Of a stretch of 64,000 nt of DNA, positions 39,725 to 60,329 are shown in pieces. Under the pieces are notes generated by a model that was given only the letters and a program-made list of their open reading frames with translations, ran no database searches and was not told the origin of the DNA. The translations under genes were made by a program, and so were the position numbers. The first letter of the stretch is position 1; the number at the start of each line of letters is the position of its first letter. The DNA is from Bacteroidetes bacterium HGW-Bacteroidetes-4 (GTDB lineage Bacteria; Bacteroidota; Bacteroidia; Bacteroidales; SZUA-534), in contig PHDD01000008.1 in assembly GCA_002840905.1 (NCBI GenBank), positions 1-64,000 on the forward strand, in the 5' to 3' direction.

Positions 39725-39809
39725 ATTAGCTTATTTGGCCGATACTTGAGTAATATCACGAAAATTGTTCCTATTTTTAATGTAAAATACATTGAGTAAT
39801 TTAGCATTA

Positions 39810-42398
39810 ATGAGAAAGCTACTATTTATTTTCTTATTGTCAATTAGCACACTGCAAATAAATGCCCAAGGCATTGTTGTAGTTAATGAAAACACTTCTG
39901 ATAAGCAGACAATAAACCTCTCAGGTAATTTATTTTATTTAATCGATTCGCTCGACGCCTTTTCATTTAATCAAATACTGCTACCTGACTTTGAAAACCG
40001 CTTCACTCAATCGGCATACAGCACCTTTCTTTATAAGAAAAACAATTACAGCCAATGGTATAAGCTAAGTGTACTTAACAACTCAGCATTAGAGCAACAT
40101 CTGGTACTAAGCATAAACAATCCGCTGATTAACAATATAACTTTTTTTTCGCAAAACGATTCTTCATACTATCACACCGGTTTAAATCACAATTACCACC
40201 AACGACCGGTAAATTTTAAAAACTATTTATTTAACATTACCCTTGCTCCCGGTGAGCAGGCGCTTTATAGTTTTAAAATATCAGGACAACTTTTTCCAAC
40301 CTATATTCCCATCACACTTAGTACAAAAGCCTTTGTTGAAAAACAATTAACACGCTATGCCTTTTTGCAGGGAGCTTTTTACTGTATGGTAATTTTGCTG
40401 GTAATTCTTTTGTTACTTCTTTGGATGACAGAAAAAAACAAATCGTACCTGTTTTTTTTATTTATTCTTGTTTACCTGACTTTATTTATTCTTTGGCGGA
40501 ATGGATTGCTTTTCCAATATGTTTTCCCAAACGCACCTCAATACTATCCTTTTATCAGAAAAACTCTTTTTACTTTAGGCCTTTTTCTTATAGCTGTTTT
40601 TCAATGGTATTATTTCAACATTGCAAAAAGCAAGCCCTTACTTGGCAAGGCTTTCCGCATTTATTTTATTGTTGCTATAGCGTATGGACTTTTTCAATAC
40701 ATAATCCCAAATTATGAATTCTATCAATATGGTATTTATGTGGTAACCATTTCGCTGGTACTAATATCGCTACTAAACATTCATCTGTCATTAAAAAATA
40801 AAAAACCGCTGACAAAACCCATTATTCTGATGGTGCTGGTTTTGTTGGCCGATGCCGTTTTACAACTTTTCTTTAAATTCAGCATTAAGGGATTTACCTT
40901 TATCGATATTCAGCTTACTTCGTTCACTGCAGTGTATATATTCGGTACCATTTTCTGGATTTTTATTTTAAAATTCCGTAGTTTCAGAACCGAACTGGTT
41001 GAGATGAAAAAAAATCTGGAACACCTGGTCGAAAAAAGAACCTTTCAGATTAATTCTCAAAAAGATGAATTAAAATCGCAACACGAAGAATTACTGCTTC
41101 AGAAAGAAACCCTGCAATCGCAACGCGAAGAACTTCGCGCACAAAAAGAATTGCTTGAAATTAAAAATCTTGAACTGGCAAAACTTTCGCTGGTGGCCAG
41201 CAAAACCGACAACCTGATTTACATTTTTAGCCCCGATGGGGAACTCGACTGGTTTAACAGCTCGTACAGCCATACCCTTGGGATAACTTACGACGATTAC
41301 AAACAACGCGACGAGCGATTGAATATTCTTGAAATAAGTACCAACAACAATATACGCCACGTATTAAATACCTGCCTGCGTCAGAAAATTGTAGTGTCAT
41401 ACGAAACCAAAATGGTTGATGAAAACAACAACGAAAAATGGTATCAAACTACCCTTACACCTATTCTCGACCAGCGCGAAAATGTAAAACATTTAATTGC
41501 TATTGATACTGACATTACCAAACTTAAGCAGTACGAAGATGAGCTTGAACAACAGCAAAAAGACGCTGAGCATCAGAAAAATCTGGCTGTTAATCGTAAA
41601 GAGGAATTGGAAGAACGCCAAATTGAAATTTACGACAGTATTCGTTACGCCAAACGAATACAAACGGCTATTATGCCAAAAGTAAAACAAATTCAACGCG
41701 ATTTTTACGACAGTTTTGTACTGTTTTTACCCAAAGATATTGTTAGCGGTGATTTTTACTGGTACCATCGCATCAACAATAAATATTTTATTGCAGCTGT
41801 TGATTGTACTGGTCATGGGGTTCCCGGAGCATTTATGTCAATTATTGGAACCTACCTGCTGAATTCAATCATCATTCACAATGGCATTACCGACCCGGCT
41901 GAAATTTTAAGGCAACTAAACCGGAAAATTAAAATTGCACTAAAAACAGATAACCATTCGCAAACCAGCGACGGAATGGATTTGGCCCTGGTGGTAATTG
42001 ACAAAACAGAAAAAACACTGGAATTCTCAAGTGCCCTAAGACCAATGTATCTTTTTAACGGAGGTAATTTTATTGAAGTAAAAGGTGACAAAACGCCAAT
42101 TACAAGCAGCATTTCAGGAACTTCAATAGCCTCGTTCACCAACCACCGGTATTCGTTTAACGAAGGTGATTTGTTCTACATTTTTTCAGATGGAATTATC
42201 GATCAGTTTGGAGGAAAAGTAGGTAAAAAATTCCTGACCAAACGCTTTAAACAATTGCTGTTCGAGATTAATCCTCTTTCGATGAAAGAACAAAAAGACA
42301 TTATTAAACGTGCTTTCGACGAGTGGAAAGGAGAATACGAACAAGTTGACGATTTACTGGTTATAGGGATCCGCTTTAACGAACCAATGAATTTCTAG
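39810..42398 (+). CDS. 7TM-DISM receptor with PAS and SpoIIE-type phosphatase domains
   Basis: The 862-residue membrane protein has a signal peptide, a 7TMR-DISM extracellular beta domain (about 35-175), seven membrane segments (about 180-395), a Glu/Gln-rich coiled coil (about 405-460), a PAS domain (about 465-580) and a PP2C/SpoIIE phosphatase (about 620-862). Phosphatase motifs are IVSGDFYWYHRI (first Asp), AAVDCTGHGVPGAFMS (second) and DGMDLALVVID. It should sense a ligand and dephosphorylate a Ser/Thr protein, perhaps a STAS protein such as the one at 51190. A TTG start 18 nt upstream is less likely. Confidence 0.88.
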   Translation: MRKLLFIFLLSISTLQINAQGIVVVNENTSDKQTINLSGNLFYLIDSLDAFSFNQILLPDFENRFTQSAYSTFLYKKNNYSQWYKLSVLNNSALEQHLVLSINNPLINNITFFSQNDSSYYHTGLNHNYHQRPVNFKNYLFNITLAPGEQALYSFKISGQLFPTYIPITLSTKAFVEKQLTRYAFLQGAFYCMVILLVILLLLLWMTEKNKSYLFFLFILVYLTLFILWRNGLLFQYVFPNAPQYYPFIRKTLFTLGLFLIAVFQWYYFNIAKSKPLLGKAFRIYFIVAIAYGLFQYIIPNYEFYQYGIYVVTISLVLISLLNIHLSLKNKKPLTKPIILMVLVLLADAVLQLFFKFSIKGFTFIDIQLTSFTAVYIFGTIFWIFILKFRSFRTELVEMKKNLEHLVEKRTFQINSQKDELKSQHEELLLQKETLQSQREELRAQKELLEIKNLELAKLSLVASKTDNLIYIFSPDGELDWFNSSYSHTLGITYDDYKQRDERLNILEISTNNNIRHVLNTCLRQKIVVSYETKMVDENNNEKWYQTTLTPILDQRENVKHLIAIDTDITKLKQYEDELEQQQKDAEHQKNLAVNRKEELEERQIEIYDSIRYAKRIQTAIMPKVKQIQRDFYDSFVLFLPKDIVSGDFYWYHRINNKYFIAAVDCTGHGVPGAFMSIIGTYLLNSIIIHNGITDPAEILRQLNRKIKIALKTDNHSQTSDGMDLALVVIDKTEKTLEFSSALRPMYLFNGGNFIEVKGDKTPITSSISGTSIASFTNHRYSFNEGDLFYIFSDGIIDQFGGKVGKKFLTKRFKQLLFEINPLSMKEQKDIIKRAFDEWKGEYEQVDDLLVIGIRFNEPMNF

Positions 42399-48810: not shown

Positions 48811-48841
48811 TAAACCGGTACTAATTGCCGGTTTATTTTTT
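48811..48841 (+). terminator. Terminator after transketolase, overlapping a convergent stop codon
   Basis: TAAACCGG (48811-48818) and CCGGTTTA (48828-48835) form a perfect 8-bp stem followed by six T. The stop codon of the minus-strand response regulator lies inside the right arm. Confidence 0.88.
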
Positions 48842-49213
48842 CATACAAAACTTTTCAACAACCGACTGAATCTTGGATATTAAATAAGGTTTGGTAAGCA
48901 GTTCGTCGAATCCTGCCGAGTTAAATTCATCGAAAAAATCGTTGGGATTGTGTGCTGTGAGTGCTACAATAGGAATAGCAGCTATAGTTTTATCAGAAAG
49001 ATTACGGATATATCTGGTGGTTTCCAAACCATTCATTACCGGCATTTCAATATCCATTAATACCATATCAAAATGAGTTTGCTCCAGCAAACCAATAGCC
49101 TCTTTACCATTACCGGCCATTTTAAATTCGCAACCAATTTCACGGGCTATTTCGCCCAATAACACACGATTAATAAAAATATCGTCGACAATTAACAAAA
49201 CAGGTTTTGCCAT
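48833..49213 (-). CDS. Single-domain response regulator
   Basis: The 126-residue receiver domain has acidic pair VDD, phospho-acceptor Asp in MVLMDIEMPVMNGLETTRYI, Thr in VALTAHN and Lys in LLTKPYLIS. This type is common as the receiver of hybrid systems. It is divergent from the chemotaxis operon (132 nt apart), so a link with CheA is possible. Confidence 0.9.
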   Translation of the reverse strand: MAKPVLLIVDDIFINRVLLGEIAREIGCEFKMAGNGKEAIGLLEQTHFDMVLMDIEMPVMNGLETTRYIRNLSDKTIAAIPIVALTAHNPNDFFDEFNSAGFDELLTKPYLISKIQSVVEKFCMKK

Positions 49214-49344: not shown

Positions 49345-51147
49345 ATGAGCCAGCCCGAAAGTAATAATTTAAGTGAATTTCTAAAAAACTTTCCACGTCA
49401 GGAAATAATTGAAACACTCAACACCATCGACCAAAAAATAGGGTCGTTACATACCATAAGTTCCAAAGATTTTTTGTTCTTTAATAAACTGCTTAAAGAT
49501 TATTACAAGCATATAAAAGAAATTGCAGATAACAATACTACGCTAAGCACTTTTTTTAAAAAAGAACTGAATAAGTTTGCAGAGCAACTGAATATAAAGA
49601 ATCAGAATCAACAAAAAAACATTGCGCAAATAAAAGAAACCGGTAAACAGATTGAAGATATACTTACGCTTACCTTTTCGCAAATCGATCTAATTATTGT
49701 CCCCTTTAACAATTACAAACAAAACCTGATAACATTAAAATACCTACTGGCCAATTTAAAACTACATTTTACTTACATTAACCTGCCTAATAAAACAGAA
49801 TTACAAAGCAGTGTAAACACACTAAGTCAAAGCATCGATACCATTCAGCAAAAATTTGAAGTGGCAGGTTCCGGATCCGATTCACTGAACAATCAGATTA
49901 TCGAATTAAAAGACAATTTATGCATAACCAAAACCCTGGGTATAAAAGAAACAAGTGAGCAACTCCGAAAACTATCCATTCAAATAAAAAAAATACTTTT
50001 CGACGAATATTGGTCCGACGATTTTATTAGTGAGCTAAATCGCAGAACCCAAAACTGCTTTGCCAACATGGGCGAAATAATTACAAACATTCAGTACCAT
50101 GACATCATCAGGCAAAAAATGGAACACATCCAAACCTCGCAAAAGGAACTGATTAAAGGTCTTAGCGATTTAAAAGCATCAGAAACACCCGATAAAAGTC
50201 TGGAAAACCAGCTGGGTTTTATTGCAAAAATTCCTGAAATTACCGACATTCAGGTAGCCCAGTTGCTTTACACCAATAAAGATTATCAAACTTCAATCGA
50301 AAAAATCACCAGCAAACTGGTTGAAGTAGGGCGCGAGATGAAGGAGCTGAACAACCTGTATAAAGTTATTATTTCAAACAGCAATCAGTTTGAAGATGTG
50401 TTTATTAGCGACGCAAAGGAAGCTCAACAACATTATTTTAATTTTATGAACCAGTCGGAAGAAGACTGGATTCAATCGCTCAACAAAATAAACGGGCTTT
50501 TTGATGTTTATTATTCCCTTAAAAAGGAATTCGGCGAAATTTTCATCAGTGAAAAAACCCTGCGCGGAGAAATAAAAAACTTTGAGGGTTTAATAAAAGC
50601 CAACGGAAAAAATTTTGGCCACGAACTCATGCGCCGCTTGTTATTGTTGTTATCGGAACTACAAATGAACTCCAACTCGCTAAAAACCAACCTAAACCAA
50701 ATTACACAGCATTTTGCCAGTTTGCAGGATTTACTCAACCCTTTCAACACGAATCAAAAAAATGACACTAATATTCACGACAACCTGTTGACGTTATCGA
50801 GCAGTTTTAATCACATAAAACAGGTAGGTCAGCAATACGGTAGTTTGAGCTTAAAAATATCTTCTGAAATTACGTCAAGCTTTAAAAGCATCGAGTATTA
50901 CAATTACTTTAAAAATACTGTCGAAGAAATTGTAACCTTTTTGAACGAAATCAATAAAAAAGTAAATTACGACAACCTTAAATCATTTATTGGCGACAAT
51001 AAAGATATACTTAAACAAATTGAAAAACTCTATACCATGCAGAGTGAACGCGATATTCATCAGCAAATGGTTGAAACGGGAGGAATTTCAGCAATCAACA
51101 GCCAACAAAACAATGATGATTTAAACGATGATATTGAATTATTTTAA
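49345..51147 (+). CDS. 600-residue helical cytoplasmic protein with CheZ-like motif
   Basis: The protein is almost all helix, without signal or membrane segments. At 244-262 it has EIITNIQYHDIIRQKMEHI. Here Asp253 and Gln257 have the D-x3-Q spacing of the CheZ catalytic helix (Asp143/Gln147 in E. coli). A second, degenerate version (FKSIEYYNYFKNTVEEIVTF) lies near 515-535, suggesting internal duplication. It is first in the chemotaxis operon. It may be a CheY-phosphate phosphatase or a receptor-like scaffold; no MCP tip sequence is present. This is inference; the family is not recognised. Confidence 0.6.
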   Translation: MSQPESNNLSEFLKNFPRQEIIETLNTIDQKIGSLHTISSKDFLFFNKLLKDYYKHIKEIADNNTTLSTFFKKELNKFAEQLNIKNQNQQKNIAQIKETGKQIEDILTLTFSQIDLIIVPFNNYKQNLITLKYLLANLKLHFTYINLPNKTELQSSVNTLSQSIDTIQQKFEVAGSGSDSLNNQIIELKDNLCITKTLGIKETSEQLRKLSIQIKKILFDEYWSDDFISELNRRTQNCFANMGEIITNIQYHDIIRQKMEHIQTSQKELIKGLSDLKASETPDKSLENQLGFIAKIPEITDIQVAQLLYTNKDYQTSIEKITSKLVEVGREMKELNNLYKVIISNSNQFEDVFISDAKEAQQHYFNFMNQSEEDWIQSLNKINGLFDVYYSLKKEFGEIFISEKTLRGEIKNFEGLIKANGKNFGHELMRRLLLLLSELQMNSNSLKTNLNQITQHFASLQDLLNPFNTNQKNDTNIHDNLLTLSSSFNHIKQVGQQYGSLSLKISSEITSSFKSIEYYNYFKNTVEEIVTFLNEINKKVNYDNLKSFIGDNKDILKQIEKLYTMQSERDIHQQMVETGGISAINSQQNNDDLNDDIELF

Positions 51148-51189: not shown

Positions 51190-51498
51190 ATGAAAGAGTT
51201 TACACTTACTGCCACCAAGGACAAAAGTGCAGGCACAACCAACCTGACCCTGCAAGGGAAACTAAATGTTTCCCACATGACTGAATTGCATAAAGAGCTT
51301 CAAAAAGCTACCAAAGGCAGTAAAAAAATAAAAATTACCCTGTCAAAAGTTGAAGATGCCGATGTGTCGACCATCCAACTACTCAAAGCTTTTGAAAATA
51401 CCTGCATAGCAAATAAAATTGAAACCGAGTTTCAGTTAAACCTGCCTGAAGATATTGAAAACCTGTTTACAAAAGCAGGACTATCAAACCTATTATAA
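51190..51498 (+). CDS. STAS domain protein
   Basis: The 102-residue protein is a lone STAS domain: TNLTLQGKLNVSHMTELHKE and VEDADVSTIQLLKAFENTC, with the conserved Ser in Asp-Val-Ser where related antagonists are phosphorylated. STAS proteins in chemotaxis loci are known but their job varies. A partner anti-sigma kinase is not in the window; the SpoIIE phosphatase at 39810 could act on it, which is speculation. Confidence 0.85.
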   Translation: MKEFTLTATKDKSAGTTNLTLQGKLNVSHMTELHKELQKATKGSKKIKITLSKVEDADVSTIQLLKAFENTCIANKIETEFQLNLPEDIENLFTKAGLSNLL

Positions 51499-51524: not shown

Positions 51525-51890
51525 ATGGGAAAACGAATTCTGATTGTTGACGATTCCGAAAGTATACGCGAGGTGGTTAGCTTCACCCTCGAAAACGCCG
51601 GACATGACGTATTAAAAGGAGTCGACGGGCAAGATGCCCTGAAATTTTTAGATGGTAGTAATCTCGACCTGATTATTACTGACTTGCACATGCCAAATAT
51701 GGATGGTATTGAATTCATTAAAAACGTGCGTTCAAAACCCGATTACCAATTTGTTCCCATCCTGTTTTTAACCACAGAATCGCAAACGGCAAAAAAGATG
51801 GAAGCCAAAGAAGCAGGCGCAACCGGTTGGATAATAAAACCTTTTGTTCCTGAAAAATTATTAGCCGCCATACAAAAAGTTGTAAGATAA
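51525..51890 (+). CDS. cheY: Chemotaxis response regulator CheY
   Basis: The 121-residue receiver has DDSESIREVV (acidic pair), LIITDLHMPNMDGIEF (phospho-acceptor Asp), FLTTESQ (Thr) and WIIKPFVPEK (Lys). Its stop overlaps the cheA start by one base, so the two are coupled and it is the expected CheA target. Confidence 0.93.
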   Translation: MGKRILIVDDSESIREVVSFTLENAGHDVLKGVDGQDALKFLDGSNLDLIITDLHMPNMDGIEFIKNVRSKPDYQFVPILFLTTESQTAKKMEAKEAGATGWIIKPFVPEKLLAAIQKVVR

Positions 51891-53938
51891 TGGAAAAATT
51901 CAGAGAAAAATTCGTTGAAGAGGCAAACGACCTAATTAACGAACTGGAAAAAGTACTTCTTGAGCTTGAAAGTCAACCCAACAATGCAGAATTAATTCAG
52001 CAGATTTTCAGGGTAATGCATTCACTCAAAGGAGGAAGTGCTATGTTTGGGTTCAATAAAATGGACAAGTTTACGCATCACCTCGAAAACATCTACGACC
52101 TAATCAGAACAAACAAACTGGCCATAAACAATGATATACTGAACATCACTCTGGCGTCAGTCGATCATTTGCGTAGCTTGATTCAGGAAAAAGATGATTC
52201 TGAAAATACCAACCGGGTTCAGCACGATCTGTTGCTTAGCAAAATACTTGAAATTATAAACGAAAACGTGATGGGCGAAGAAAACGCAAAAACCATGCAG
52301 CCCATGACACCCCGCAACAAAAAAGAACACGCAACATATTACATCAGCTTTAAACCCCACCCCAACATTTTTAACTTTGGAACCAATCCGCTTTACCTAA
52401 TTGACGAACTGGTTGATTTAGGACAAGCCATGGTATTTCCCCGATTCGACAAACTTCCGGGAATTGACATTTTGGAACCTGCTAACTGTTATTTATACTG
52501 GGACATATTTTTAGCAACCAATCAAGGGATTAATGCCATTAGCGAAGTATTTATTTTTGCCGACGAGCAATGCGATTTAACCGTAAAAAAAATCTCAGAA
52601 CTTAACCTTATTGAGGAAAATTCATTCATTGGAATCATTGAAAAAGCGGTCCAAAACAAACAGGAGATAAATATTGACGAGTTGGTAAGCCTTACCAACG
52701 ACCTGGAAAAAATTTATGAAAAAGAGAAAGAAACCCAATTGCAGGCTAAAATTACAACGACAGCCGACACAAATATTAGCAGTATCAGGGTTTCGTCAGA
52801 AAAACTCGACAACCTGATAAACTGGGTGAGCGAATTGGTTACCATACAGGCTCGGTTAAGCCTGTTTGCCCAGGAAACCGAAACCAATGGTTTATTGGCC
52901 ATATCAGAAGAAGTTGAGAAAATATCGCGCCGTTTACGCGACGATGTATTTAGCATTCGCCTGATTCCCATCGAAAATATGCTAACCCGCTTTCATCGTT
53001 TGGTGCGCGAACTATCGCAAAACCTCGACAAAGATGTGGTTTTCAAAACTGAAGGAACCGATACAGAACTCGACAAAAATATCATCGAAATGTTATCAGA
53101 CCCCTTGATGCATATTGTTCGCAACAGCATGGATCATGGAATTGAATCGAAAGCTGACCGTAAAAAAATGGGGAAACCAGCAAAAGCTACCATCCTGCTA
53201 AAAGCTTTTTATTCGGGAACCAACGTAATTATTCAAATATCGGACGATGGAAAAGGTATTGACCCCGAACAAATAAAAAAACATGCGCTAAGCAAAGGGC
53301 TTATTGCCGCCGATGTTGAAATATCGAAAAAAGAGACCCTGGAATTGGTATTTCTCCCGGGTTTTAGCACAGCAAAACAAGTAACCAAAGTTTCTGGCCG
53401 CGGAGTTGGAATGGATGTGGTAAAACGTAAAATTGCCGAGATTCGTGGTGAAGTTGACCTCGATTCTGAAATAAACAAAGGAACTACCATTACCATCCGA
53501 TTGCCGTTAACCCTTTCCATCATCGATGGTTTACTGGTTCAGATTGGTGAAACCAAATTTGTTATTCCCCTGTCTTCAGTCGACAAAGTATATGAATTCA
53601 AGCATGAAGCTTTGCTCAATGCAGTTAACCATCTTATTCGTACCGACAATAACGAAGTGGCTTATCTGAACCTGAGGAAATTATTTGAAATCGATGGTAC
53701 ACCTCCTGAAACTGAACATGTTATTGTGGTTCAATACAGCGATGTTCGCATTGGTTTATCGGTCGATAACATTATTGGTCAATACCAGGCAGTACTTAAA
53801 CCTTTGGGCAAAATGTACAAGAATCAGCAATCCATTTCAGGCGCCACTATTCTTGGCGACGGAACCGTTGCACTGGTACTGGATACCAACAAACTAATTA
53901 CACAATTTGCAAACAGCGAAATAAAAGTTGGAGGTTAA
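51890..53938 (+). CDS. cheA: Chemotaxis histidine kinase CheA
   Basis: The 682-residue kinase has an HPt domain with phospho-acceptor His44 (VMHSLKGGSAMFGF), a P2-like region (about 145-255), dimer helices (about 295-350), an HATPase domain (LMHIVRNSMDHGIE, QISDDGKGID, GRGVGMDVVKRKI) and a C-terminal CheW-like domain (about 545-682). All domains look intact. It lies between cheY and cheW. Confidence 0.96.
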   Translation: MEKFREKFVEEANDLINELEKVLLELESQPNNAELIQQIFRVMHSLKGGSAMFGFNKMDKFTHHLENIYDLIRTNKLAINNDILNITLASVDHLRSLIQEKDDSENTNRVQHDLLLSKILEIINENVMGEENAKTMQPMTPRNKKEHATYYISFKPHPNIFNFGTNPLYLIDELVDLGQAMVFPRFDKLPGIDILEPANCYLYWDIFLATNQGINAISEVFIFADEQCDLTVKKISELNLIEENSFIGIIEKAVQNKQEINIDELVSLTNDLEKIYEKEKETQLQAKITTTADTNISSIRVSSEKLDNLINWVSELVTIQARLSLFAQETETNGLLAISEEVEKISRRLRDDVFSIRLIPIENMLTRFHRLVRELSQNLDKDVVFKTEGTDTELDKNIIEMLSDPLMHIVRNSMDHGIESKADRKKMGKPAKATILLKAFYSGTNVIIQISDDGKGIDPEQIKKHALSKGLIAADVEISKKETLELVFLPGFSTAKQVTKVSGRGVGMDVVKRKIAEIRGEVDLDSEINKGTTITIRLPLTLSIIDGLLVQIGETKFVIPLSSVDKVYEFKHEALLNAVNHLIRTDNNEVAYLNLRKLFEIDGTPPETEHVIVVQYSDVRIGLSVDNIIGQYQAVLKPLGKMYKNQQSISGATILGDGTVALVLDTNKLITQFANSEIKVGG

Positions 53939-53939
53939 T

Positions 53940-54473
53940 ATGGAAGAAAACGAAATAAAAACAAACGAAAACATTACTACATTCTTATCGTTTCAATTGG
54001 GAAAAGAATTTTTTGCCGTTAACGTGGCCAAAGTTCTCACCATTCTCGAGTTAAAACCCATTACCAAGGTTCCCAATGCTCCCGAATTTATGCGGGGTGT
54101 AATTAACCTGAGAGGAAATGTGTTGCCGGTAATCGATATGCGCATTAAATTTGGTATGCCTCCCACCGAATTTACCACCAATACCTGCATTATTGTTTTA
54201 AACGTTATCATCGATGAAGAAAACGTGCAACTCGGAATTCTGGTAGATGCTGTGGATGAAGTACTCGAAATTAAAGACCATGAAATTGAGGCATCGCCAA
54301 CCATTGGTACAAAATATAAGGTAGAATTCATACAGGGAATGTACAAACTTGAATTAGGATTCATTATGCTATTGAATATCGATTTAATTTTTAACACCCA
54401 GGAACTGCTCATTGCAAAAGAAGTTGAAAACAAAACCGAATTGGTCGAAGAAACAAAAAAAACTAAAAAATAA
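53940..54473 (+). CDS. cheW: Chemotaxis coupling protein CheW
   Basis: From the ATG at 53940 (1 nt after the cheA stop, with GGAGG at 53930-53934) the 177-residue protein is a CheW domain: FLSFQLGKEFFAVNVAKVLT, MRGVINLRGNVLPVIDMRIK. It links CheA to receptors, although none is seen nearby. The upstream in-frame ATG overlaps cheA. Confidence 0.94.
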   Translation: MEENEIKTNENITTFLSFQLGKEFFAVNVAKVLTILELKPITKVPNAPEFMRGVINLRGNVLPVIDMRIKFGMPPTEFTTNTCIIVLNVIIDEENVQLGILVDAVDEVLEIKDHEIEASPTIGTKYKVEFIQGMYKLELGFIMLLNIDLIFNTQELLIAKEVENKTELVEETKKTKK

Positions 54474-54487
54474 TCGAAGTACCGGAT

Positions 54488-55339
54488 ATGGATCGCGACA
54501 TGTTCCAAAATATTTATCGCTCTACGCTTTCAGATAAAGAGTTCACCCAATTAAGCAATTTTATACAAACAAATTATGGCATTAAAATGCCACCGGCTAA
54601 AAAAATTGTTTTGCAGGGACGCCTCCAAAAAAGACTTAGAGAACTTCAGATTCCCGACTTTAAAAGCTATGTAGAATATGTTTTTAGCAAAGGGGGGGAA
54701 AATGAAATCATTCACATGATGGATGTGGTTTCGACCAATAAAACCGACTTTTACAGAGAACCCGTTCATTTTGAATTTCTTGAAAAGGAGTTATTACCAA
54801 TGCTGGCTCAAAACAAAACGCGAGGAGTTATCAAAGTATGGAGTGCCGGCTGCTCGTCGGGTGAAGAACCTTATACACTGGCTATTGTTTTGCAGGAATT
54901 TAAAGAAAAAAATCCGGGATTCGATTACCACATTCTGGCTACCGACATTTCAACTCAGGTGCTCCAGCAAGGAGCCAATGCAGTTTATAAAGAGGACAAA
55001 ATAGCCATAATACCCAACCACTTAAAAAAGAAATACTTTTTACGGTCAAAAAACAGAGAGTTGTCTCAGGTTCGGGTAGTTAAAAATTTAAGAGACAAGC
55101 TGTCGTTTCAGCGTCTGAATTTTATGGATACAACTTACCACATTAATGATTCGTTTGATATTATTTTTTGCCGGAATGCACTTATTTATTTTGAACGGCC
55201 TAACCAGGAGATCGTTATAAATAAACTGGTTAACAAACTCAAACCCGACGGTTATTTCTTTTTAGGCCATTCTGAATCAATTACCAATATGCATGTTCCA
55301 TTAAAAAGTGTAAAGCCAACCATATTTAAAAAAACTTAA
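54488..55339 (+). CDS. cheR: Chemoreceptor methyltransferase CheR
   Basis: The 283-residue enzyme has the N-terminal helical domain and a SAM-dependent methyltransferase fold with VWSAGCSSGEEPYTLAI (cofactor loop) and IIFCRNALIYFERP. It methylates glutamates in receptors. Presence of CheR and CheB implies a methylatable receptor elsewhere in the genome. Confidence 0.95.
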   Translation: MDRDMFQNIYRSTLSDKEFTQLSNFIQTNYGIKMPPAKKIVLQGRLQKRLRELQIPDFKSYVEYVFSKGGENEIIHMMDVVSTNKTDFYREPVHFEFLEKELLPMLAQNKTRGVIKVWSAGCSSGEEPYTLAIVLQEFKEKNPGFDYHILATDISTQVLQQGANAVYKEDKIAIIPNHLKKKYFLRSKNRELSQVRVVKNLRDKLSFQRLNFMDTTYHINDSFDIIFCRNALIYFERPNQEIVINKLVNKLKPDGYFFLGHSESITNMHVPLKSVKPTIFKKT

Positions 55340-55350
55340 TTCGCAAACCC

Positions 55351-56250
55351 ATGCTTTCAGATAAAGAATTAATTGAGGTATTAAAAAAGAGACTTGAACA
55401 AGCGCAAAAAAATCAGGAACTGGTTGAAGAACAACGCACAGAACTGCAACTGGTAAATGGCAAATTAGCGGAATCAGAAGCATTAAAAAGCCACTTTATA
55501 TCGAATATCACCAACGAGATAGTAAATCCTTTTGCTTCAATTTTAGGCTTGTCGAAAAATATTATTGCCTCAAAAGACTCCGATATAGCCAAAATTAAAA
55601 GCATGGCCGAATTAATTCATTCTGAAGCCTTTGAACTTGATTTTCAATTGAAGAATATTTTTACCGCAGCCCGTATCGAAGCGGGGGAATCATCGCCCGA
55701 ATACATAAAAACCGACATAAACCTGCTAATAACAAGCATTATAAGTGCTTATAAATACAAGGCAGAACAAAAACAGTTAAAAATAAATTTTTCTTTTGAA
55801 CTTGGTAAAGAATTTGAAACCGCGCATTATTTCAGAACTGATCCGGAAAAACTCAAACTGATTCTCTCTAATTTACTGAGTAATGGAATCAAATACAGCA
55901 ATGCGGCAAATAAAATTGAAGTGAAAGCCTGGGTCGAAAACCGCACCTTAAAAGTTATGGTTAAAGATTATGGCATTGGTATCGATAAAAAGAATCTGGA
56001 ACTAATTTTCGACCGGTTCAAACGTGTCGACAGCTCAATTAATTCATTAAATCCAGGACACGGACTTGGCTTGTCGGTTACCAAAGCGCTTATCGACCTA
56101 ATGAATGGCGACATTGAAATAGCCAGCAAACGGCACATTGGTTCCATATTCACCATATCCATTCCCGAAAGTGATTCAACCGAAAACGACGGGTACGCTT
56201 TAGATGGAAACGAATTTATTTTTGGCGATAGTGATGATGAAGTCTTCTGA
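55351..56250 (+). CDS. Histidine-kinase-like protein lacking the phospho-acceptor His
   Basis: The 299-residue soluble protein has an N-terminal coiled coil (about 5-45), a DHp-like helix pair and an HATPase domain (about 140-280). The DHp motif reads SHFISNITNEIVNP. In active kinases it is x-S-H-E-I-R-T-P; here Asn55 replaces His. ATP-binding boxes are kept (LLSNGIKYSNAANK, VKDYGIGIDKKN, GHGLGLSVTKAL). It may be a phosphatase, an ATP-dependent scaffold or a pseudo-kinase in the chemotaxis operon. No receptor domain is present. Stop overlaps cheD start. Confidence 0.8.
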   Translation: MLSDKELIEVLKKRLEQAQKNQELVEEQRTELQLVNGKLAESEALKSHFISNITNEIVNPFASILGLSKNIIASKDSDIAKIKSMAELIHSEAFELDFQLKNIFTAARIEAGESSPEYIKTDINLLITSIISAYKYKAEQKQLKINFSFELGKEFETAHYFRTDPEKLKLILSNLLSNGIKYSNAANKIEVKAWVENRTLKVMVKDYGIGIDKKNLELIFDRFKRVDSSINSLNPGHGLGLSVTKALIDLMNGDIEIASKRHIGSIFTISIPESDSTENDGYALDGNEFIFGDSDDEVF

Positions 56251-56725
56251 AAAAAACAACCTACTTAAATCACATTACCTGTATCCTGCAGCGCTTTTTG
56301 CCGAGCCTGAACCTCATATGGTTGATACCATTTTAGGATCGTGCGTGGCTGTTTGTTTGTACGATCCGGTTAAAAAAATTGGCGGCATCAATCATTTTAT
56401 GCTTCCTTTTTGGAATGGAACCGGCCTGGCATCGCCAAAATACGGAAACATTGCCATACAAAAATTGTTAGACAAGATGCTGGCTTTGGGTTCCGAAAAA
56501 AAAAACATACAGGCCAAGGTATTTGGAGGTGGCGAAGTAGTTGAAACCAAATCAAACTTGTTCCGGATTGGCGAACGCAACATTGAAATTGCGCTAAAAA
56601 TGTTACAAGAACAAAAAATACATATTACGGCAAAAAGTGTAGGCGGCACCCTTGGACGAAAAATACGCTTCAATACTGAAACCGGGGTAGTCTTAATGAA
56701 GTTAATTCAAAAACAACACTCCTGA
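56234..56725 (+). CDS. cheD: Chemoreceptor glutamine deamidase CheD
   Basis: The product of about 163 residues has the CheD signature: [20 protein letters not shown] with the catalytic Cys in [15 protein letters not shown] with the catalytic His, and VFGGGEVVE. It overlaps the kinase-like gene by 17 nt. CheD deamidates receptors and often aids CheC/CheX-type phosphatases. Confidence 0.93.
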
Positions 56726-56729
56726 AATT

Positions 56730-57812
56730 ATGTCAGAAAAAATAAAGGTCCTAATAGTTGACGACTCCGCTGTTGTCCGGCAAACTTTAGCAGAAATCTT
56801 AAATACCGATCCTACCATTGAAGTGATGGGCGTTGCAGCTGACCCTTATTTTGCTGCATCACGTATTGCGCGCGAAGTTCCCGATGTAATTACTCTCGAC
56901 ATTGAAATGCCGAGAATGGACGGACTTACTTTTTTGCGTAAAATAATGACCCAACACCCTATTCCTGTGGTTATTATTTCGAGTTTGACCGAAACCGGAA
57001 CCGAGACTGCCATTAAAGCGCTGGAATATGGAGCAGTTGAAATAATTACCAAACCCAAAATGGGCACTAAAGAATTTATCGAAGAATCGAAAATTCGCTT
57101 GCGCGATGCGGTAAAAGCAGCTGCTGCAGCCAAACTTTCGCGTAAAAAAGTAATTGTTCAACCCAAATCAATCGAAGTTAAACCAAAACTATCGGCCGAT
57201 GCCATAATGCCCAAAAGCCATTCCGGTGACGCAATGATAAAGACCACAGAAAAAGTTATTGTGATTGGAGCCTCAACCGGCGGAACCGAAGCGCTTCGCG
57301 TGTTCCTCGAAGCACTCCCAGCCGACTGCCCAGGTATTGTAATTGTGCAACACATGCCCGAACATTTTACCCGCTCGTTTGCCGAACGACTCGATCAATT
57401 ATGTAAAATATCAGTTAAAGAAGCTACCAATAACGACACCGTAATTCGAGGAAGGGCTTTGATTGCTCCCGGAAACCATCACCTGATTTTAAAACGAAGC
57501 GGCGCCCGCTATTATGTTGAAATTAACGACGGCCCGTTGGTAAACCGCCACCGGCCTTCGGTTGATGTGTTGTTCCGTTCTACCGCAAAATATGCCGGAA
57601 ATAATGCCGTAGGGGTTATTATGACTGGCATGGGCGACGATGGCGCGCGGGGATTATTAGAATTACGCGAGGCGGGAGCGCACACCATTGCCCAGGATGA
57701 AAAAACCTGCATAGTTTTTGGTATGCCCAAAGAAGCCATCAAATTAAATGCAGCCGAAACCATACTCCCTCTGGATAAAATAGCTGAAAAAGTACTCAAA
57801 CTGCAATATTAA
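56730..57812 (+). CDS. cheB: Chemotaxis methylesterase/response regulator CheB
   Basis: The 360-residue enzyme has an N-terminal receiver ([29 protein letters not shown]) and a C-terminal methylesterase with Ser in [12 protein letters not shown], His in [12 protein letters not shown] and Asp in [12 protein letters not shown]. It removes receptor methyl groups and deamidates. It ends the chemotaxis operon. Confidence 0.95.
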
Positions 57813-58043: not shown

Positions 58044-60329
58044 ATGGAAAAACAGAATGTACCTAATTATAGTTTCTACTATGCAGCCTTGGGATTTATC
58101 CTGGGACTCGTTATCAGCTCCGTATTATATGGTTTTGCTTTGTCGTCGAATGAGATGCTGTTTACTTTTAAAAATATTCTGAAGTTACATAGCACCGGAC
58201 TCCATTTTATTGTAAACGATTTAATCCCCCTATTTTTAGCAATAGTTGGCTATTTTGCCGGTTTACACCTAATAAAAGTTGCGAAAGAACTTGATGCCTT
58301 AAAAACAGCCAAAGACAACAAATCGGCCAACATGCTTGAATTTGCTGAAAACCTGGCTAAAGGAAACCTTGAAGTTGATTACGACCCCAGCAACGACAAC
58401 TCGCTGGGTAAAATTATGGTTAACCTGCGCGACAGTTTGCTAAAAAGCAAAAAAGAAGATCAACAACGAAAAAAAGAGGATGAACAGCGTAACTGGGTAG
58501 CTGAAGGTTTAGCCAAATTCGGCGACATACTCCGTCAAAATAACGACAATATTGAAAAACTTTCGTTCGATTTAATCAGCAACCTTTGCCGCTACATTAA
58601 TGCTGTGCAGGGAGGTTTCTTTGTATTAAACGACGACCTGGAAGAAGATGCTTACTTTGAATTAACAGCCCATTTTGCCTACAATCGAAAAAAATACAAT
58701 AAAAAACGCATCGAAATGAGCGAAGGTTTGGTTGGCCGCGCAGCGTTTGAAAAAAGTACCATCTATATCGACGAAGTTCCCGATGATTATGTTGACATAA
58801 CCTCGGGCCTTGGAGAAGCCAACCCAAAAGTACTTTTAATTGTTCCGCTTCAGGTAAACGAAAAAGTTTACGGTGTTCTTGAAATATCAGCTTTTAATTA
58901 CTTTGAACCCTATGTAATTGAATTTGTTGAAAAAGTTGCCGAAAGCATTGCCACAACCTATTCTACCGTTAAAACAAACTTAAAAACGGCTGAACTATTA
59001 AATGAATCGCGTGCAGCGGCTGAACGCCTTACGCAACAAGAAGAAGAAATGCGGCAAAACATGGAAGAACTCCAGGCTACTCAGGAAGAAGCAGCTAAAC
59101 AAGCCGAAGAATTTATTAGCTTTACCAACTCGGTAAACCACACCCTGATAAGGGCAGAGTACGATGTAAACGGTGTTTTACTGTATGCCAATACCAAATT
59201 CCTTAAAAAATTAGGCTATTCCAGCAACAGCGAAGTTGAAGGTCATCACATTTCAATTTTTATAAGTGATAAAGATAAAGCCTGGTTTAACGAGTTGTGG
59301 GATGGGCTGGCAAAAGGAGGACGCCACTTTGAAGGTTACATGAAACACATTACCAAATCGGGCAAAGATTTGTGGACCATGGCTACTTATACCTGTGTGC
59401 GTAACAACATGCAAACCGTTGAAAAAATATTATTTCTGGCTATCGATACCACCGAACACAAAGAACAAAGTCTCGATTTTGAAGGACAGATTGAAGCCAT
59501 CAATCAATCGAGCATTAAAGTGGAATATGCTCCAAGTGGCCGCATGCTCGAGTGCAACCAACGCTTTATTCAAACCCTGGGCTACTCCACCGAAGATTTA
59601 AAAGACTACAGTGTCTTTAACTTTATGGGCGAAGACGAACAGAGCGATTTTGAAGAAATCTGGAACCGGGTTATCAATGGTGAACCTTATCAGGGACAGT
59701 CAAAACTGATTTCCCAAACCGGACAATCAAAATGGTTCGATGTTAATTATACTGCTGTATATAATATGTATGGCGAAGTATCAAAAATTATCTCCATTGC
59801 ACATGATATTACCGACCAGAAAGAAATGGAGCTGATTACCAAACAACAAAACGAATTGCTTAAGAAACAGGAAGAAGAACTTAAAGCCAGCGAACTGGAA
59901 CTACAAAAACGATTAGATGAAGCTAAAAAAGAAGTGAAGTCGCAGTTCCAGGAAATTGAAAAGGTTAAAATCAGAAACGAAAAAACGCTCGAAGGAGCCC
60001 ACGATGCCATTTTTACTATTAATCAGGATGGAATTGTTGAATTCTTTAACCGCGCAGCTGAAAACCTATGGCAATATTCACGCAAAGAAGTTATAGGAAA
60101 AAATATAAAAATGTTATTCCGTGAGGTTTCTGAAGAGAAAGAAGACGAAATGATATTTACGCTTACCCATCCTGAAAAACGCAAACTGGTTGGAGCCCGA
60201 AGAGAAACCACAATAAAAAATAAAAATGGCGAAGAAACTCCGGTAATTATGATATTGGCTGGTGCTAAAGTTCAGAACGAATACACCTACACTGCATTCA
60301 TCCAGAATATTGAAGTTGAATTGTTCTAA
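58044..60329 (+). CDS. Two-TM HAMP-GAF-PAS-PAS-PAS sensor without output domain
   Basis: The 761-residue protein has two membrane segments (about 7-28 and 54-73), a HAMP-like linker (about 80-140), a GAF domain (about 160-310), Gln/Glu-rich coiled coils (about 320-360 and 590-640) and three PAS domains (about 360-480, 480-595, 650-755). It ends in the last PAS; no kinase, cyclase, MCP or phosphatase domain follows. It lies 231 nt after cheB. The layout resembles Bacteroidota sensor proteins with FGDILRQNN-type GAF. It may act as a receptor for the chemotaxis-type pathway, which is inference. Confidence 0.82.
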   Translation: MEKQNVPNYSFYYAALGFILGLVISSVLYGFALSSNEMLFTFKNILKLHSTGLHFIVNDLIPLFLAIVGYFAGLHLIKVAKELDALKTAKDNKSANMLEFAENLAKGNLEVDYDPSNDNSLGKIMVNLRDSLLKSKKEDQQRKKEDEQRNWVAEGLAKFGDILRQNNDNIEKLSFDLISNLCRYINAVQGGFFVLNDDLEEDAYFELTAHFAYNRKKYNKKRIEMSEGLVGRAAFEKSTIYIDEVPDDYVDITSGLGEANPKVLLIVPLQVNEKVYGVLEISAFNYFEPYVIEFVEKVAESIATTYSTVKTNLKTAELLNESRAAAERLTQQEEEMRQNMEELQATQEEAAKQAEEFISFTNSVNHTLIRAEYDVNGVLLYANTKFLKKLGYSSNSEVEGHHISIFISDKDKAWFNELWDGLAKGGRHFEGYMKHITKSGKDLWTMATYTCVRNNMQTVEKILFLAIDTTEHKEQSLDFEGQIEAINQSSIKVEYAPSGRMLECNQRFIQTLGYSTEDLKDYSVFNFMGEDEQSDFEEIWNRVINGEPYQGQSKLISQTGQSKWFDVNYTAVYNMYGEVSKIISIAHDITDQKEMELITKQQNELLKKQEEELKASELELQKRLDEAKKEVKSQFQEIEKVKIRNEKTLEGAHDAIFTINQDGIVEFFNRAAENLWQYSRKEVIGKNIKMLFREVSEEKEDEMIFTLTHPEKRKLVGARRETTIKNKNGEETPVIMILAGAKVQNEYTYTAFIQNIEVELF

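Follow-up and report, generated by a model that had tools for sequence, protein, structure and literature searches.

A 600-residue protein encoded at the head of a chemosensory (che) gene cluster is, with a probability that we put at roughly 80%, a soluble, all-helical phosphatase of phosphorylated CheY (CheY~P), which would act like CheZ and be built on hairpins derived from chemoreceptors (MCPs). Its gene lies in the window, i.e. the whole stretch of 64,000 nucleotides that was analysed, from the contig PHDD01000008.1 of Bacteroidetes bacterium HGW-Bacteroidetes-4. The CheZ-like reading is favoured because the catalytic motif is conserved, because profiles link the family to stand-alone CheZ proteins, because cheY and cheA adjoin the gene, and because no other CheY phosphatase was detected. 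An earlier reading made from the letters alone (the sequence-only reading) had proposed a CheY-phosphate phosphatase with two CheZ-like helices. The CheZ-like part of that proposal is supported, but only the first of the two helices can be catalytic. The MCP-type hairpin scaffold and a C-terminal tail resembling those of CheZ and FliM had been overlooked.

The features of the gene, its protein and its neighbourhood are collected in Table 1. Neither Pfam nor NCBIfam gave a noteworthy family match for the protein, and the CheC/CheX/FliY domains (PF04509, PF13690) were absent from it in the Pfam scan. An AlphaFold2 model, for which four sequences served as input, is all helical (pLDDT 79, pTM 0.58), with helices at residues 18-144, 150-218, 225-274, 283-419, 424-464, 470-513 and 518-540 and short ones up to residue 577. 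Confidence is low from residue 563 onward, and the C-terminal tail is disordered.

Table 1. Coordinates of the candidate phosphatase gene, of the parts of its protein and of the neighbouring genes in the window.
Feature	Position	Strand	Basis or remark
Candidate gene for a CheZ-type CheY~P phosphatase (600-residue all-helical protein)	49345..51147	+	ORF, homologues
First long hairpin, degenerate MCP-type, residues 18-218 (helices 18-144, 150-218)	49396..49998	+	model; hhalign against the genome's own MCPs
Helix with CheZ-like active site, residues 225-274	50017..50166	+	model; core against Bacteroidota CheZ profile
Most conserved window, residues 249-262, IQYHDIIRQKMEHI	50089..50130	+	D253 = 50101-50103, Q257 = 50113-50115
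Second long hairpin, degenerate MCP-type, residues 283-513 (helices 283-419, 424-464, 470-513)	50191..50883	+	model; hhalign
Inactive duplicate of the CheZ-like helix, residues 516-529	50890..50931	+	half-against-half hhalign; N520/N524 replace D/Q
YTMxSERxIH motif, residues 563-572	51031..51060	+	homologue alignment
Acidic C-terminal tail ending DDIELF, residues 592-600	51118..51144	+	ELF conservation; putative CheY~P binding
STAS-domain protein	51190..51498	+	PF01740, E 4.7e-6
CheY, proposed substrate (D53, T83, E85, K105)	51525..51890	+	PF00072; alignment with E. coli CheY
CheA	51890..53938	+	Pfam
CheW	53934..54473	+	PF01584
CheR	54488..55339	+	PF01739
Histidine kinase	55351..56250	+	PF02518
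CheD (start uncertain; overlaps kinase gene)	56204..56725	+	PF03975
CheB	56730..57812	+	PF01339 + PF00072
GAF/PAS sensor	58044-60329		231 bases after CheB

A single-sequence search of 295 genomes of the class returned only the window itself and L002 (E 5e-4, 91 residues), which was dropped on its ORFs. Three homologues from Bacteroidota MAGs (L003, L004 and L005), with 60, 50 and 37% identity to the 600-residue protein, were retrieved by peptide patterns. Profile searches across the phylum (395 genomes) yielded five more full-length proteins, all from beyond the class of the window (L027, L028 and L038-L040), and three shorter, receptor-type relatives in two genomes (L035-L037). The first matches on alphaproteobacterial plasmids were weak (Shinella, E 5e-4 in one search and 0.2 in another). 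With the Shinella protein as query, members were found in Rhizobium, Agrobacterium, Novosphingobium, Sphingomonas, Azospirillum and Methylosinus. Seven alphaproteobacterial long proteins aligned with the nine of the Bacteroidota at an hhalign E of 4.4e-29 over 547 columns, with the motif in register, against 0.4 for the reversed control and 0.48 for the best of 30 shuffles. Receptor-type proteins of Methylobacterium and Methylosinus reached E-values of 0.2 and 1, and their assignment rests on motif, tail and MCP-like sequence. In the short MCP-like proteins (L035-L037, L046:3987-5270 and L047:4296-5327), a CheZ-like QFQDxxRQ helix follows the receptor tip and the C-terminus is IELF, extended by one residue in L035 and L036. 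Existing annotation calls members of the family a hypothetical protein, a chemotaxis protein or a type VII secretion target; the last name, given to the Shinella member (L045:7329-9053), looks wrong.

The sequence-only reading had singled out a D-x3-Q motif (Asp253, Gln257), which sits within NIQYHDIIRQKMEHIQ. The open reading frame is present, the pair lies on helix 225-274 of the model, and it is the only conserved acid-x3-amide pair. The protein contains 13 [DE]xxx[QN] pairs, so that the bare pattern says little. However, the D253/Q257 pair was kept in nine of nine aligned long proteins, this protein included, while the other 12 pairs were kept in at most three of the nine. Residues 249-262 form the 14-residue window of highest conservation (2.59 bits, against a mean of 1.12 and a standard deviation of 0.39). 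Conservation of the motif in homologues, on which the earlier reading had made its claim depend, extended to 16 of 16 long proteins from two phyla (Bacteroidota and Alphaproteobacteria), a count that carries selection beyond L005 because later members were found by profiles or queries containing the motif. The agreement of L003-L005 is unselected, since the patterns that retrieved them lay outside the motif. Across 16 cores of both architectures, long and receptor-type, Q250, D253, R256 and Q257 were invariant; Azospirillum L083, which belongs to the set of 16 long proteins only, has C in place of R256. In CheZ, as described in PMC7750401, AxxFQ stands just ahead of DxxxQ. This element is absent from the 600-residue protein, which has NIQYH there, and the receptor-type L037 has AVQFQ.

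The link to CheZ runs through stand-alone CheZ proteins of the Bacteroidota. Profile A5 of the family core was built without any CheZ sequence; when it was searched in 395 genomes, 63 matched at E<=0.01. Ten matches at E<=1.5e-16, in eight genomes, are this family (nine by their sequences or their place in the alignment, G394:C2 by its score), and the remaining matches were weaker, from 8.6e-8 upward. An ORF with an LQ-x-QD type motif was found in 21 of the 22 weaker loci examined (L072 gave none), a count that is partly by construction since the stand-alone ORFs were picked by a motif regular expression. Because of this selection, the independent test is the Pfam scan of ten of the 21 ORFs: CheZ (PF04344) was the best Pfam hit in all ten (E 2.2e-11 to 3e-6), in seven of them above the curated cut-off. 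The NCBIfam CheZ models listed nine of the ten, none above cut-off. An alignment of 18 of the 21 ORFs (A6; L060, L065 and L069 omitted) matched the family core at an hhalign E of 1.2e-6 and E. coli-type CheZ at 1.2e-8, both in register, and the alphaproteobacterial set at 7.2e-5. In the PDB, A6 retrieved E. coli CheZ (1kmi_Z) first (E 1e-6), with D and Q in register; the next hits were an MCP (0.0014) and, from 0.0074 on, designed coiled coils. The best shuffle controls were 0.1 for core against A6 and 0.037 for A6 against CheZ, and the reversed controls 0.14 and 0.06. The coiled-coil background, measured against the genome's own MCPs, was 0.13 for the core and 0.0048 for A6. Masking the 14-residue motif dropped the match of core and A6 to E 0.02, and hence the similarity is concentrated in the active-site helix.

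Alignment with CheZ had been suggested earlier as a check, and its outcome was divided: the two-step route via the Bacteroidota CheZ proteins was significant, whereas direct comparison with five E. coli-type CheZ proteins was not. By hhalign this comparison was out of register; by HMM the 600-residue protein ranked 13th among 1056 listed, behind shuffled sequences, though L028 ranked first. The alphaproteobacterial set matched the five CheZ proteins at E 0.016 in the wrong region. The 600-residue protein alone gave no PF04344 or NCBIfam CheZ match at E<=10; the NCBIfam CheZ model matched four of 12 members at E<=10, at best 9.4e-4 (L037). The core profile gave chance hits only in the PDB sequence search and did not reach 1kmi. 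Structure prediction, a second suggested check, placed D253 and Q257 on a helix in a helical hairpin context. When the whole model or its residues 195-345 were used for fold searches, the results did not discriminate, as long helices match many unrelated chains. Foldseek with residues 195-345 put 1kmi_Z ninth (E 0.18, TM 0.51), where helical hairpins match widely, and CheZ was absent among the best 50 VIA-align matches listed for these residues. Whether a short helix has converged or is remotely homologous is not separable with certainty; the proposed mode of action is the same either way. That the DxxxQ arose by chance within a coiled coil unrelated to CheZ seems extremely improbable: the 13 acid-x3-amide pairs and the unspecific profile and fold matches of long helices are what this would predict, but D253/Q257 alone is conserved, shuffled and reversed controls were far weaker, and the association recurs in two phyla.

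The first half of the protein aligned with the second in the nine-sequence alignment (hhalign E 1.1e-7, IQYHDIIRQKMEH over IEYYNYFKNTVEE), against 0.029 for the best of 60 shuffles and 0.051 for the reversed control. The second copy, I516-E-Y-Y-N520-Y-F-K-N524, falls exactly under IQYHDIIRQ, with N in place of both D and Q. Hence, the degenerate copy that the sequence-only reading had noticed near residue 520 is real, as a tandem duplicate, but a catalytic role falls away with the loss of both residues; none of the 16 aligned long proteins has a second copy with both. The receptor-type proteins, which have one MCP tip, one CheZ-like helix and IELF, aligned with the second half over nearly the full extent of that half (E 1.8e-11), and their active helix fell onto the dead copy. 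Since the halves match each other and the receptor-type proteins align along the second half, a unit of MCP hairpin and CheZ-like helix was most likely duplicated, after which the second helix lost both catalytic residues. The second half matched the Bacteroidota CheZ proteins at E 0.006, which is not significant alone against 0.012 for its reversed control.

As judged from sequence comparison, the scaffold is two tandem decayed MCP signalling hairpins, each followed by a CheZ-like helix. We read it as such because distant homologues match the MCP signalling domain (MCPsignal, PF00015; L027 at 2e-15, L028 at 4.7e-11); eight members of a 12-member set matched at E<=10. Against the genome's own MCPs, the second half aligned at an hhalign E of 7.6e-8, the first half at 3.2e-4 and the alphaproteobacterial set at 1.5e-8. 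All this would also suit a degenerate soluble chemoreceptor or array adaptor, whose hairpins join the CheA/CheW array and whose terminal peptide tethers CheR/CheB, with no phosphatase activity; MCPs are described as often carrying a CheR-binding pentapeptide at the C-terminus (PMC2577667). We consider this unlikely. In the four Bacteroidales proteins (the 600-residue protein and L003-L005) MCPsignal was undetected at E<=1, i.e. the receptor tip has decayed while D and Q are invariant, and the Pfam scan of the 600-residue protein gave no transmembrane or HAMP match. Moreover, the C-terminal residues of the MCPs in L027, L038 and L040 are EFEKF or DFEKF, with an aromatic residue where the DDIELF tail has I; in Geobacter, EFEKF is described as tethering CheR (PMC2577667). 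Compared with an MCP, the phosphatase candidate shares the hairpin scaffold and differs in having the CheZ-like helix in addition.

The C-terminal ELF was invariant in all 12 proteins compared, and the nine Bacteroidota long proteins kept both ELF and a YTMxxERxxH motif (FTM in L040). Alphaproteobacterial long members end in DEDLFEDALF, DEDLFADALF, DDDLFADALF, DDDDDGLF or DFDDGLF, whereas the ends of L083 and L084 are less similar; E. coli CheZ ends in DDLLDSLGF. In 18 of the 21 stand-alone CheZ ORFs, SQx[DE][IV][DN]x[LM]F occurs within the last 120 residues, which resembles the CheY-binding peptide of FliM and CheZ. We propose that the acidic DDIELF tail is a CheY~P-binding peptide. Such a tail, and the persistence of the second helix after its catalytic residues were gone, could also belong to a CheY~P sink or sensor, in which tail and helix bind without hydrolysis and, for example, keep CheY at the array; a mere binder would not require the invariance of D and Q in 16 of 16 proteins, and we regard this explanation as very unlikely. 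Two neighbouring gene products have short acidic or hydrophobic ends that recall the DDIELF tail, the kinase at 55351-56250 (...DSDDEVF) and the GAF/PAS sensor (...NIEVELF). In the stand-alone CheZ-type protein of L059 (ORF 1030-1998), the C-terminal end is formed by four QDEID-x-LF peptides in tandem, which may be several CheY-binding tails in series.

The placement of the gene at the head of the cluster, also part of the earlier reading, agrees with its surroundings: the upstream neighbour is on the opposite strand, and short gaps separate the forward-strand genes that come next, between 51190 and 57812. From this spacing, the run from the STAS gene to cheB would form one operon with the leading gene. 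D53, T83, E85 and K105 of the cluster's CheY align with D57, T87, E89 and K109 of E. coli CheY. A divergent gene for a CheY-like response regulator lies just upstream (48833-49213, reverse strand), as it does in L003, L004 and L005. Further upstream, about 7 kb from the che cluster, 39792-42398 encodes a membrane protein with a PAS-like part, whose C-terminal stretch we take to be a phosphatase of the PP2C/SpoIIE type.

Both cheY and cheA adjoin the gene in ten of ten loci (the window, L003, L004, L005, L027, L028, L038, L039, L040 and L045), with at most one small gene between it and cheY; in L045 the gene is divergent. Of the eight loci checked for STAS (the window, L005, L027, L028, L038, L039, L040 and L045), a match near the gene was found in the window, L005, L027, L038 and L045 (below the curated cut-off in L005, L027 and L038); the small ORF of L039 and that of L040 gave no STAS match, and L028 has none. 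Among six further alphaproteobacterial loci, cheY and cheA occurred within 6 kb in L080 only. The other five had no cheY within 6 kb, cheB and MCP genes were present, and in L082 and L084 the gene directly follows cheB. In three distant loci (L028:7429-8741, L039:1691-2904 and L040:5286-6508), the che cluster includes a short CheR-like gene and, directly after it, a small gene whose product has an HNHFDH motif, presumably of the metallo-beta-lactamase type.

The genome (G000; 4.32 Mb in 42 contigs, 100% complete) contains eight MCP genes by PF00015 (nine matches, two in one frame) and one GldN, and no match to FliM at E<=1. By this gene content, chemosensing in this bacterium is receptor-based, and no flagellar switch is detectable. 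The sequence-only reading had stated that no CheC, CheX or CheZ is otherwise present, and whole-genome profile searches indeed detected none. CheC and CheX gave nothing at E<=1, with control genomes positive. The Bacteroidota CheZ profile gave nothing either, and PF04344 reached only E 0.30 and 0.58, below cut-off; as PF04344 misses the 600-residue protein itself, another equally remote phosphatase could escape detection.

By analogy with CheZ, the C-terminal tail would capture CheY~P, after which helix 225-274 would dock. D253 would then contact K105 of CheY, and Q257 would enter the CheY pocket and position the hydrolytic water, so that the phospho-aspartate of CheY is hydrolysed. The receptor-derived hairpins may serve for dimerisation, for positioning the enzyme at the receptor array, or for both. 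The outcome would be an end to the chemosensory signal, in a bacterium where no flagellar switch protein is detectable. A further-reaching and doubtful extension is that the phosphatase is receptor-gated, i.e. that the hairpins are inserted in the array or read it and that the receptor state controls both CheA and the removal of CheY~P. Under this extension, a CheZ helix would have been fused to a chemoreceptor hairpin and the unit duplicated, one site having died and one remaining active, and the family with its receptor-type relatives (MCP tip, helix and IELF) would span Bacteroidota and Alphaproteobacteria. Array placement or gating of the 600-residue protein is speculation.

The candidate shares with CheZ (PF04344; PDB 1kmi; A6) a catalytic helix whose D and Q stand four residues apart and align in register, a helical hairpin context, and an acidic C-terminal tail after a linker. 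CheZ is described as a single four-helix bundle, a dimer of hairpins, of about 214-236 residues (PMC7750401). In contrast, the model and the half-against-half alignment give 600 residues, where CheZ has 214, and two tandem hairpin units, one of them dead, which are MCP-derived; the gene is linked to cheY and cheA in a system without detected FliM. Because the curated CheZ models fail and size and architecture differ, we do not file the protein as CheZ; in all likelihood it belongs to a remote CheZ-type family that works like CheZ. CheT of Sinorhizobium meliloti, compared here by its description, is likewise a DxxxQ protein in a che cluster, with a CheZ-like predicted structure, and is described as a phosphatase for one CheY; DxxxQ proteins without significant CheZ homology can thus be true CheY phosphatases (PMC12654446). 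Unlike in our candidate, the fold is described there as CheZ-like, and that description mentions no receptor hairpins. In Rhodobacter sphaeroides another che protein, CheA3, is described as having a CheY phosphatase activity of its own, which sits in the CheA linker (PMC2829493), unlike here. Titles and abstract openings that we found described no family combining MCP hairpin and CheZ helix, which is no proof of its absence in print.

Frequently, no CheY phosphatase is recognised in chemosensory operons. If our reading is true, the family fills this gap for one type of CheY-CheA system, here one without detectable FliM, and gives a function to proteins that carry the annotations named above. 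It would also provide a directly testable route by which a phosphatase reached a receptor scaffold.

BB0569 of Borrelia burgdorferi is described as an atypical MCP, with the gene order cheA1-cheB2-bb0569-cheY2 (PMC10703414). Known here by that description and by its family model NF052273, it resembles the 600-residue protein in the length of the model (590 positions) and in its che-gene neighbourhood. NF052273 gave no match to the 600-residue protein at E<=10. It matched the receptor-type proteins L037 (E 0.0021) and L036 (E 0.019) over stretches that include the CheZ-like helix, and BB0569 may be a cousin of these relatives.
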